A stretch of DNA of 24,596 bases, from positions 1 through 24,596 of IMG/VR virus record IMGVR_UViG_3300037069_001196. The stretch is one strand, 5' to 3'. The notes under the pieces are model-generated. The model did not search any database and was not told the DNA's origin. It saw nothing but the letters and a program-made list of their open reading frames with translations. This DNA is from a virus. This document shows positions 486-10,308 of the stretch, piece after piece (position 1 is the stretch's first letter; each line of letters begins with the position of its first letter). Made by a program: the position numbers and the translations under genes.

Positions 486-514
486 ATTAAAGCACGCTTT
501 AGATAACAGCGCAA
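486..514 (-). promoter_or_regulatory. Leftward promoter of the Cro-like gene
   Basis: Read on the minus strand there is a -35 TTGCGC (514-509), a 17-nt spacer and a -10 TTTAAT (491-486). The -10 is the same as in the rightward early promoter at 1553-1581. The expected start point is about 479-480, at the A of the Cro-like ATG. Confidence 0.65.
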
Positions 515-524
515 GCGCACTTTA
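488..524. promoter_or_regulatory. Operator pair on the leftward promoter
   Basis: Two 14-bp sites start 23 bp apart: TAAAGCACGCTTTA (488-501), a near-perfect palindrome, and GCAAGCGCACTTTA (511-524), 11 of 14 bases matching the perfect palindrome found at 1566-1579. The first covers the -10 and spacer, the second the -35. Binding by the repressor (550-1263) or the Cro-like protein is inferred from position and from the matching pair at 1543-1579. Confidence 0.7.
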
Positions 525-549
525 CGTCTCGGCAGGGACAATCCTGGAC

Positions 550-1263
550 ATGGACCTAAAGGGGAGACTTGCCCGCGTGAAGCAGCGCGTCATTGATCTT
601 GGCAAAACACCGCTGAGAGGGGCCATCACGCGCATGGCAGAGGCGGCCGGGTGCAGCGTTCAAAATATGTCGCAGGCGCTGCTTGGGATAAACAAGCTCG
701 AAGACCGCCCGCTTCGCAATCTGGCAAAGTGGGCGCAGGTTGAGGCCGAATGGCTGATCGGCGGAGTGCCGCCCATGCTGAAACCGGAGGCCACAAAACA
801 GCCGCCTGAGAATTCCATTAGTGGAAAATACCAACCGCTAGCATCCTCGCAACGATGGTCACATCGTGATACAACGATGAGATGGGCACCGGTCATCCGG
901 GCTGATCAAATGGGGAAGTCCTTGCTAGAAGCCAACACCAATTGGCCCGAAAGCGAACAGAGACCGTTCGTTACCACCGCGCAGACATCGGGCATCTGCA
1001 AATTCGTGATGGTGAACGACGACAACATGGCGCCTCGCCTTGTGCGTGGGGACTGGGCTCTTTTTGACCCAGAGCGACCGCCAGAGAGGGGTAAGCGCGG
1101 GTTATTTCTCTTGCCAGATGGCGACTATGTCATCCGCTTCTATGAGCCGCTGGCCGGTGGCGGTTTTGAGGCCAGGGACGAATCAGGGCGCTGTCTTGAT
1201 AGCATCAAGCACGGCATTGTGTATGTGGGGCTTTATCTGCTTATGCAGAGCGAGGGTGGGTGA
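550..1263 (+). CDS. Phage repressor, HTH plus S24/LexA-like domain without catalytic residues
   Basis: The 237-residue protein has an N-terminal DNA-binding domain (about residues 5-70, with 'AEAAGCSVQNMSQALLG' as the helix-turn-helix) and a C-terminal LexA-like domain (about 150-230, with 'VNDDNMAPRLVRGDWALFDP'). The LexA family uses a Ser in a 'xSM' motif and a Lys 37 residues later. Here the aligned positions are Asn159 and Arg196, also 37 apart, so self-cleavage is not expected. The ATG at 550 is chosen because a start at 478 would put both operators inside the gene and add a tail not typical of repressors. It probably represses both flanking promoters. The following membrane-protein gene overlaps its stop. 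Confidence 0.85.
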   Translation: MDLKGRLARVKQRVIDLGKTPLRGAITRMAEAAGCSVQNMSQALLGINKLEDRPLRNLAKWAQVEAEWLIGGVPPMLKPEATKQPPENSISGKYQPLASSQRWSHRDTTMRWAPVIRADQMGKSLLEANTNWPESEQRPFVTTAQTSGICKFVMVNDDNMAPRLVRGDWALFDPERPPERGKRGLFLLPDGDYVIRFYEPLAGGGFEARDESGRCLDSIKHGIVYVGLYLLMQSEGG

Positions 1264-1454
1264 TGGGATCTTTAAGCATTTGGCACTGGCTCGTTGTACT
1301 TCTTTTCATGAGCGTCCTGTACTTGATGCCGGCGTGCATGATTCTCAAAAAATCCGGGCACCATCCGGCGTGGGCTGTTGTTGGCCTTGTGCCCGCCCTC
1401 AACGTCATCGGCCTGTGGTTCCTGGCGCTCAAGAAATGGCCACCCCGGCCTTGA
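1263..1454 (+). CDS. Small two-helix membrane protein cotranscribed with the repressor
   Basis: The 63-residue protein has two hydrophobic segments, about residues 5-25 ('WHWLVVLLFMSVLYLMPACM') and 35-54 ('PAWAVVGLVPALNVIGLWFL'), joined by a short basic loop (KKSGHH) and ending in KKWPPRP. It should lie in the inner membrane. The ATG at 1263 shares a base with the repressor's TGA; a GTG at 1260 is also possible. A terminator follows at 1476, so it is the last gene of the repressor unit and would be made in the lysogen. That position fits a lysogenic-conversion or superinfection-exclusion role, but this is inference and I recognise no family. Confidence 0.65.
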   Translation: MGSLSIWHWLVVLLFMSVLYLMPACMILKKSGHHPAWAVVGLVPALNVIGLWFLALKKWPPRP

Positions 1455-1475
1455 CCGCCTTGCGCCGCCGCCATT

Positions 1476-1498
1476 AGCCCGCCTAGCGCGGGCTTTTT
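1476..1498 (+). terminator. Intrinsic terminator after the repressor unit
   Basis: AGCCCGC (1476-1482) and GCGGGCT (1488-1494) form a perfect 7-bp stem with a 5-nt loop, followed by a T run to 1498. It separates the repressor unit from the early promoter downstream. Confidence 0.85.
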
Positions 1499-1542
1499 CG
1501 CATCGCAAATTTAGATCCTCCGGTCTAATCGCCCCTTTTTTC

Positions 1543-1579
1543 TAAAGCCCGCTTGACATCTAAAGTAAAGCGCGCTTTA
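1543..1579. promoter_or_regulatory. Operator pair on the rightward early promoter
   Basis: TAAAGCCCGCTTGA (1543-1556; 12 of 14 matches) overlaps the -35, and the perfect palindrome TAAAGCGCGCTTTA (1566-1579) overlaps the spacer and -10. The starts are 23 bp apart, exactly as in the pair at 488-524. Repressor binding is inferred. Confidence 0.75.
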
Positions 1580-1581
1580 AT
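1553..1581 (+). promoter_or_regulatory. Rightward early promoter
   Basis: A consensus -35 TTGACA (1553-1558), a 17-nt spacer and -10 TTTAAT (1576-1581) form a strong sigma-70 promoter. The expected start is about 1588, 38 nt before the first gene of the early operon. Both elements are covered by operator sites. Confidence 0.85.
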
Positions 1582-2598: not shown

Positions 2599-3758
2599 AC
2601 GCACCAATTGAAATCCTTGACGCCGCACCCGTGATCGAGTCGGCGCTTACCTCCAGCATCAGCAAGGTGCAAGGCGAGGTCGCTGCATTTGACCGGATTG
2701 CTGCCGGCATTGCAGCCATCGAAGCAGCCCACCCCAAGACCCTTGTCGTGGACGTGTCCACCACCACAGGGATGAAGCAGGCCATTGCAGGCCGCGCCGC
2801 CTACCGTGACCCACGCATTGCTGTGGAGAAAGCGCGCAAGGCTGCGAAGGCCCCGGTGCTTGAGCTTGGCAAGCAGATCGACGCCTTTGCCGTGAACCTT
2901 GAGGCCACCCTGCGCGAAGGCGAGGACAACTACGACAGCCAGATCAAGGCAGAAGAAGCCCGCAAGGAAGCTGAACGCGCCGCAAAGGCTGAGGCTGAGC
3001 GCGCCCGCGTTGCAGCAATCCAGTCACGCATTGCTGCTTTCAATGTCCCGCCTCAAGTGGCGTCATCGGATGCCGCAACCATTCGTGACTTTGACATCCC
3101 CAATGTTGAAGCGATGGACGTTGGCGACGACTTCCAAGAGTTCAAGCCTCAAGCTGAGGCCGCGAAATCCGCCGCGCTCGAAACGCTGCGAAAAATGCTC
3201 GACGCCGCCACTCACCGCGAAGCCGAGCAAGCCCGCATCAAGGCTGAGCAGGAAGCCGAGGCCGCCCGCATCGCTGAAGAACGCGCCGAACTGGCCCGCC
3301 TGCGTGCTGAGTCTGAAGCGCGTGAACGTGAGGCCGCAGCCGCCCGGGCCGAGCAAGAGCGCAAGGATCGTGAAGCCCGCGAGACCGCTGAGCGCGAACA
3401 AGCCGCCACCCTGGCCGCCGAACGCGCCGCACAAGCCGAAGAACTGCGCAAACAGCGCGAAGCCCAAGAGGCCGAACTGAAGGCGCAGCGCGAAGCACAA
3501 GCCAAGGCCGACGCCGAAGCCGCAGCAGCCCGCCGCGCCGAAGAGGCCCGCCTTGCCGCCGAGCGCCAAGAGATCGAGCGTCAACGCGCAGAGGCCGAAG
3601 CCCAACGCGCGGCCGATGAAAAGGCACGGGCAGCAGTTGAGGCCAAAGCCAAGGCCGCAGCCCTGAGCATGCTGAAGGCGCTGAAGAAGATCGCCAAGGT
3701 CAGCACCCAGGACGAGGTGAAGGCCATCGCAAATGCAGCCATCGCGGAGGCATCCTAA
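2595..3758 (+). CDS. Long Ala/Glu/Arg coiled-coil protein of the recombination module
   Basis: The 387-residue protein has a folded N-terminal part (about 1-110), a DUF1351-like arrangement around 'YRDPRIAVEKARKAAKAP', a central region (150-200), and a very long charged helix from about 205 to 360 built of repeated E/A/R/K heptads (AEQERKDREARETAEREQ). A short helical tail (ALKKIAKVSTQDEVKAIANA) follows. It lies three genes upstream of the Bet/exonuclease pair, as DUF1351-type proteins often do; a role in recombination or replication is inferred. The ATG at 2595 overlaps the previous gene. The frame is open further upstream, but that part is arginine-rich and out of register with the operon. 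The helical region is low in complexity. Confidence 0.7.
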   Translation: MNAPIEILDAAPVIESALTSSISKVQGEVAAFDRIAAGIAAIEAAHPKTLVVDVSTTTGMKQAIAGRAAYRDPRIAVEKARKAAKAPVLELGKQIDAFAVNLEATLREGEDNYDSQIKAEEARKEAERAAKAEAERARVAAIQSRIAAFNVPPQVASSDAATIRDFDIPNVEAMDVGDDFQEFKPQAEAAKSAALETLRKMLDAATHREAEQARIKAEQEAEAARIAEERAELARLRAESEAREREAAAARAEQERKDREARETAEREQAATLAAERAAQAEELRKQREAQEAELKAQREAQAKADAEAAAARRAEEARLAAERQEIERQRAEAEAQRAADEKARAAVEAKAKAAALSMLKALKKIAKVSTQDEVKAIANAAIAEAS

Positions 3759-9831: not shown

Positions 9832-10308
9832 TCACTTGGGCGCCTTGGCCCGCTTCACGACATCGCGCAGCCAGTTCAGGCCGTGCATGTCGATCTTGTC
9901 CCAAAGGCTGGGTGGCAGCCTGATGGTCTTCTGTTGCATCGCCTCGCCGGATGAGCTATTTCGCCCCGGGCATGCGGCAGCGGAATGGTTATAGCAATCG
10001 CCGCCTAAGGCCTCGACAGTGAGGGCCTTTTCTCTTGCAAGCGCAAGCGTAGGTGACCCCATGAGTACCACATGAAACCGAAACAATTGCCCACCATACA
10101 AACGCCACTCGCTTTGAAGTCGTTTGTTTGAGTGGCGACCTGCATCTAGCGCGCTTTTGTGAGCGCTCCACCTGCCTTTGATGTCCTTGCTTTGCCCAAC
10201 ATACACCGCCCTCGTATGCGTGTTAACGATCACATAAACGCCACAAACACGATGCGCATCCCCCTGCGGGTTGGCAATTGCACTATCAATGATGTCGGCA
10301 ATACTCAT
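9832..10308 (-). CDS. GIY-YIG nuclease-domain protein with a DNA-binding-like tail
   Basis: The 158-residue protein carries a GIY-YIG domain at about residues 20-108: GVY (23-25), YVG (36-38), R46 and H50 (KGRWSAHK), the metal-binding Glu at about E93 (LAREKALTVE) and the terminal Asn (CYNHS). Such domains cut DNA as homing, repair or restriction enzymes. The tail (about 115-158: 'GRNSSSGEAMQQKTIRLPPS', 'LNWLRDVVKRAK') resembles the separate small protein encoded just upstream. Its ATG overlaps that gene's stop by 4 nt. It lies between attP and the accessory cassette. Homing or anti-competitor roles are speculative. Confidence 0.75.
   Translation of the reverse strand: MSIADIIDSAIANPQGDAHRVCGVYVIVNTHTRAVYVGQSKDIKGRWSAHKSALDAGRHSNKRLQSEWRLYGGQLFRFHVVLMGSPTLALAREKALTVEALGGDCYNHSAAACPGRNSSSGEAMQQKTIRLPPSLWDKIDMHGLNWLRDVVKRAKAPK

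Follow-up and report, generated by a model that had tools for sequence, protein, structure and literature searches.

The arrangement described so far that comes closest to the locus analysed here is that of phage N15. In the immB region of N15 and phiKO2, which encodes the CB repressor and Cro, the repressor gene lies between a two-operator OL and an OR cluster, as it does in our locus, and the sites of CB number three at OR and two at OL (PMC4488713, PMC4997575). Cro of phiKO2 and of PY54 binds one operator only (PMC4997575, PMC4488713). The cI and cro mRNAs of PY54 begin at the AUG, as shown by RACE (PMC4488713). Gifsy prophages encode repressors that lack a cleavage motif and are induced by antirepressors (PMC3121763). 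In lambdoid phages, Cro helices correlate with OR half-sites, according to Hall et al. 2005 as cited in PMC4488713.

Here we describe a locus on a 24.6-kb viral contig (record IMGVR_UViG_3300037069_001196), the whole of which is referred to below as the window. Sequence comparison indicates that the locus is very probably the immunity region of a temperate phage, of the lambda/N15 OL–OR type, in which one CI-like repressor acts on paired operators at both PR and PL. Its genes and control sites follow the lambda order (PL/OL, accessory gene, cI, OR/PR, cro). In the mechanism that we propose, a dimer of the CI-like repressor would bind TAAAG-N4-CTTTA palindromes in pairs at PR, on the cro side, and at PL, on the recombination/integration side, perhaps cooperatively as the initial annotation proposed, with both promoters pointing away from the repressor gene. 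Within each pair one operator would cover the −35 and the other would be fused to the −10, so that bound repressor would exclude RNA polymerase from both promoters and lysogeny would be kept. The repressor and a small membrane protein would form one lysogenic unit closed by a terminator. During lytic growth, a putative P22-type Cro would compete for some or all of the operators. The cro gene, and probably cI, would be translated from mRNAs beginning at the AUG, and induction would proceed through something besides RecA-driven self-cleavage, for example an antirepressor.

Two outward-facing promoter–operator modules

The initial annotation described identical promoter–operator modules on either side of the repressor unit, and the four operators and two promoters are located exactly where it had put them (Table 1). 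The operators are of the TAAAG-N4-CTTTA type. The left module reads TAAAGTGCGCTTGC-N9-TAAAGCGTGCTTTA (524–488, minus strand) and the right module TAAAGCCCGCTTGA-N9-TAAAGCGCGCTTTA (1543–1579, plus strand), and both point outward, the left from 524 to 486 and the right from 1543 to 1581. A single ruler describes the two: an operator, a −35 at +10, a second operator at +23 and a −10 at +33. The claim that the layouts are equal to the base is correct, with start-to-start steps of 10, 13 and 10 bp in both modules and operators 23 bp apart. The word identical applies to the layout but not to the bases, since 29 of the 39 positions match between the modules, against 21 for the best unrelated 39-mer of the window, and the −35 is TTGCGC on the left, with only three of six consensus matches, versus TTGACA on the right.

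Table 1. Features of the switch region, in window coordinates
Feature	Position	Strand	Remarks
OR2	511–524	−	TAAAGTGCGCTTGC; overlaps PR −35; OR1 lies 23 bp away, the usual spacing among relatives
OR1	488–501	−	TAAAGCGTGCTTTA; cro-proximal; outer palindrome perfect; last four bases inside PR −10
PR, leftward cro promoter	486–514	−	−35 TTGCGC 514–509, 17 bp, −10 TTTAAT 491–486
OL2	1543–1556	+	TAAAGCCCGCTTGA; overlaps PL −35
OL1	1566–1579	+	TAAAGCGCGCTTTA; last four bases inside PL −10
PL, rightward promoter of the recombination/integration operon	1553–1581	+	−35 TTGACA 1553–1558, 17 bp, −10 TTTAAT 1576–1581
cro, 63 aa, putatively P22-Cro-type	288–479	−	Pfam P22_Cro E 4.2e-5; PHROG 409 E 6e-7
Repressor (cI), 237 aa	550–1263	+	HTH and S24-type C-terminal domain; phrog_4 E 1.5e-9
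Small membrane-like ORF	1260–1454	+	phrog_32536 E 1e-4, a family of unknown function
Probable terminator of the repressor unit	about 1476–1498	+	7-bp GC-rich stem, then U5; z −1.6, modest
Possible PRM −10, GACAAT	537–542	+	From sequence, position and inference from relatives; would start cI mRNA at the AUG (550)

A consensus promoter scanner that requires an A at −10 position 2 called neither PR nor PL. Both −10s (TTTAAT) lack the second-position A because the CTTTA of the operator occupies that position. The predicted +1 of PR coincides with the cro AUG (479), and that of PL falls near 1588. A C-rich stretch (such as CCCATC or CCCATG) is common to the far modules, those on the PL side, and lies at 1585–1591 in the window, ∼5–11 nt past the −10. 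No gene starts there, and the stretch may mark the PL start site.

The genes around the modules are consistent with an immunity region. The repressor and membrane-protein genes lie between the modules, as annotated; the start of the membrane-like ORF overlaps the repressor stop (TGATG at 1261–1265), and a terminator-like hairpin divides this unit from the right-hand promoter. In several relatives (L004, L006, L017) the slot between the repressor and PL holds differing small genes, among them lipoprotein-like and secreted-like ones. A divergent cro adjoins the repressor gene, as recognised from a P22_Cro match and a family alignment. The Pfam match is weak (23.7 bits, below Pfam’s own cut-off of 30.2); the window Cro is 62% identical to the reference relative. 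The cro arm may also be the replication side, as the initial annotation supposed; leftward past cro there is a DUF4406 gene and then the contig end, ∼480 bp beyond the cro start. The right module does face a recombination/integration operon, with rightward genes on the plus strand from 1626 that include RecT, a YqaJ-type exonuclease and an integrase. An ORF adjoining the integrase (9832–10308, minus strand) appears GIY-YIG endonuclease-like by eye.

A constant ruler with changing operator spelling

Relatives of the locus came to light by two routes only, the operator pattern and a Cro profile. Repressor-led searches of viral contigs, genome contigs, phage records and plasmids returned no relatives, and the Cro group had no match among 50,697 deposited phage records. 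A one-module operator pattern matched 74 loci in viral contigs, and 15 of the pattern-found viral loci carry a second module facing the opposite way, 0.5–1.7 kb off around the repressor gene. In pattern-found loci the cro ATG usually lies 7–9 nt past the cro-proximal operator. Many loose-pattern matches were rejected, either as tandem 23-bp repeats that are not such switches (L011, L024, L031 and others) or as P22-type OR regions (L005, L010 and others). A stricter operator pattern found 13 loci in bacterial genomes, eight of them Burkholderiales (Cupriavidus, Collimonas, Solimicrobium, Herbaspirillum and Achromobacter), which suggests a similar host for the window phage. The operator pattern also matches clostridial and archaeal genomes (L075–L077, L084, L086); in the Clostridia genomes (L075, L077, L084, L086) a TAAAG module occurs with TTGACA and 23-bp spacing, perhaps in an unrelated lineage. 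To avoid circularity, we also searched with a Cro alignment that made no use of the operator. This search gave 75 loci, and adding the window and removing one truncated locus and duplicates left a Cro-selected set of 68.

Across these ∼70 loci the ruler is nearly constant while the letters of the operators differ by group. The spellings include TAAAG-N4-CTTTA, TGAAC-N4-GTTCA, GTTAG/GTAAG-N4-CTAAC, TGAAT-N4-ATTCA and a few others. At the expected place of OR1 the outer palindrome is perfect in 42 of the 68 Cro-selected loci and near-perfect in 17, where background positions mostly score 2–3 of 5. OR2 can be recognised in 52 loci; of these, 38 have it 23 bp from OR1 and 11 have it 24 bp away. 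Regardless of operator spelling, the −10 keeps its first T in 59/59 loci and its last T in 57/59; the far modules likewise keep the last T (31/31). Palindromes lost while the proteins stay, which the initial annotation had held to speak against its model, are found in spelling only: the palindrome, its spacing and its position are kept in divergent groups.

The spacing also bears on where transcripts start. OR1 lies 7–9 nt from the cro ATG in 63 of the 68 loci, and with the −10 fixed in position the transcript would start on the cro AUG or one or two bases from it at most; cro thus looks leaderless. The distance between the cro and cI ATGs is 70 bp in 29 loci, the window among the loci with this value, and 67–73 bp in 47 of the 62 loci with an ATG-start cI. 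GACAAT at 537–542 would likewise put the start of the cI transcript on its AUG, and cI is probably leaderless as well.

In 20 AAG-class relatives another palindrome, spelled mostly GAAAG or GTAAG-N4-CTTTC, stands at offset 44, immediately ahead of the cI ATG; as a third operator it could control cI. At the place where these relatives score at least 7, the window has 4 of 10 matches. A near-palindromic segment at about the right place, CAGGGACAATCCTG (533–546), was considered as a replaced OR3 and rejected; its letters mismatch the operator. The two operators per side given in the initial annotation therefore describe the window phage but are not typical of its kin.

The operators on the two sides of the repressor gene change together, a co-variation for which a comparison of related phages had been proposed. 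We scored the far side of 57 loci with the half-sites of their own OR1 and with those of other groups. The far-module mean was 15.5/20 with own half-sites and 11.7 with foreign ones (Wilcoxon p 2e-10, a value that is optimistic because related loci are not independent). The own half-site beats the best foreign one in 39 of the 57 loci and ties in eight, and the far module of the window scores 19/20 with its own half-site versus at most 14 with foreign ones. The recognition helix of the repressor agrees with operator class in 47/47 loci assignable for both, an agreement that is not independent of descent, as the Cro tree is poorly resolved and offers only one independent pair on supported branches, too few for a phylogenetically controlled comparison to carry weight. 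The helix types are xQAxxQ with AAG, YQAxK with AAC and SAVxxW with TAG.

One relative, L098, shows a mixed spelling upstream of cro (∼2940–3001). Here, OR1 and OL are spelled TTAAG and OR3 retains GTAAG/CTTTC; the repressor helix is altered (VQAISLV) and the Cro helix is unaltered. This hints that OR1 and OL follow the repressor and that OR3 follows Cro.

Together, these comparisons favour the claim that one repressor acts on both arms: the gene order is lambda-like, OL and OR half-sites change together, and the recognition helix goes along with them. Matching switches on either side of the repressor gene likewise suggest that one repressor probably silences both arms. That the two arms are shut in the same way is less certain. 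The layout is common to them, but the −35s differ in strength, and at OR a third operator is present in many relatives.

Alternatively, the palindromes could be mainly those of Cro, with the repressor controlling one module only or binding elsewhere. We regard this as improbable. In its favour, some sites in the telomere phages PY54 and phiKO2 are used by only one of the two regulators, and the window repressor is distant from the repressors of its relatives (only about 20–28% identical) while the Cro is close. However, the window helix, SVQNMSQ, is of the same xQAxxQ (AAG) type as in other TAAAG phages, helix type and operator class agree wherever both can be assigned, and in L098 the spelling of OR1 and OL changed along with the repressor helix but the Cro helix did not. 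A single repressor bound at both modules is thus the reading that we prefer, and the use of one operator by Cro of phiKO2 and PY54 suggests that the window Cro may not use all four sites.

The repressor protein and its induction

The repressor is predicted to contain both an HTH and a lambda-CI-like C-terminal domain. Its AlphaFold model (mean pLDDT 71.6, from a nine-sequence alignment) matches the P22 c2 DNA-binding domain (Z 10.3, 1.6 Å) and the lambda CI C-terminal domain (Z 13.4). The residues of the catalytic dyad, placed by an alignment that rests on ∼20% identity, are replaced: the Ser by Asn159 (window 1018–1029, residues 157–160) and the Lys by Arg196 (window 1132–1143, residues 195–198). 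The surrounding motifs read DDNM-AP versus GDSM-xP in active relatives, and YVIRFY versus VKR or FKK. The Ala-Gly cleavage site likewise reads Met121-Gly122.

These substitutions indicate that the window repressor is probably not self-cleaving, and induction would therefore probably occur by means other than RecA-driven self-cleavage, such as an antirepressor. Most TAAAG-class relatives encode short repressors of 120–160 aa that lack the C-terminal domain. With the dyad lost here and the domain absent in most relatives of the same class, induction by self-cleavage is unlikely in this phage, and the pattern suggests that direct self-cleavage is not the rule in the group. The relatives L117, L144 and L163 also lack the Ser/Lys dyad; L165 is among those that retain it. 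No antirepressor was found in the window, which is a partial contig, and a search of the same sequence for LexA-type boxes found no exact box, and those with one mismatch were fewer than chance would give.

A repressor that still cleaves itself through an unusual active site, with lambda-like SOS induction, would keep an S24-type fold, as this protein does, and at ∼20% identity the dyad could be misaligned. We regard this, too, as improbable, given that both dyad motifs and the cleavage site depart from those of active relatives, that other relatives are also without the dyad, and that many are without the domain entirely.

Chance expectation and comparison with described switches

The paired palindromes exceed what is expected by chance. 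Palindromes with up to two mismatches number six in the window, whereas shuffled sequences lead one to expect 1.9; the operators account for four of them. Operator pairs, defined as two palindromes at 23-bp spacing with no more than three mismatches summed, occur exactly twice in the window and in none of 300 order-2 Markov sequences of equal length. Short-palindrome repeats do arise by chance in AT-rich phages, and some loose-pattern matches are plain tandem repeats, but chance resemblance and a recent duplication without function both have next to no probability: no simulated sequence had such a pair, the positions are kept in relatives with diverged spelling, and the spacer and inner bases differ between the modules as expected of old, selected copies.

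More tentatively, and with somewhat less than even confidence, we conjecture that a large set of uncultured temperate phages, with hosts including several Burkholderiales, shares one frozen ruler with a −10-fused operator and leaderless cI and cro, and that new immunities may arise in it when the recognition helix is rewritten together with all the operators on either side. If true, this would constitute a natural series of insulated switches. The ∼70 switches, with constant geometry and co-varying operator spelling and helix, provide a ready test set for the origin of phage immunities and also supply matched repressor/operator pairs of non-enterobacterial origin.

The locus combines features of several known immunity regions. 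Lambda shares the gene order, and its accessory slot between cI and OL (rexAB) resembles the variable slot between repressor and PL in the window and its relatives. The lambda operator pairs also overlap the −35 and −10, with a spacing of 24 bp versus 23 bp in the window, and the C-terminal domain of CI has the same fold as that modelled for the window repressor. However, each side of the lambda region has three operators, a leader puts the cro ATG 26 bp past OR1, CI is self-cleaving and the operator sequence is unrelated. P22 immC (c2, cro) shares the half-sites TAAAG/TTAAG, the 14-bp palindromes and the 23-bp spacing; the window Cro may belong to the Pfam family of P22 Cro, judging by a weak match, and c2 matches the HTH of the repressor model. 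In P22, by contrast, cro has a leader, and the position of the promoter against the operators is shifted by ∼13 bp. In PY54 leaderless cI and cro are demonstrated, whereas in the window they are predicted from spacing; PY54 differs in having a single Cro operator and lacks a third OR operator controlling cI. Unlike the Gifsy repressors, the window repressor keeps a C-terminal domain, although without the dyad.

N15 remains the nearest match. Its OL footprint spans 39 bp, its OR footprint ends 5 bp before the cro ATG, and its −10, TATAAT, lies 7 nt before that ATG. N15 and phiKO2 differ from the window in operator sequence and in that their OL faces a replication gene rather than a recombination operon; the window, for its part, has no recognisable OR3 and has an extra membrane-like gene between the repressor and PL. 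As a switch in the style of lambda and N15, the region would not represent a new mechanism.
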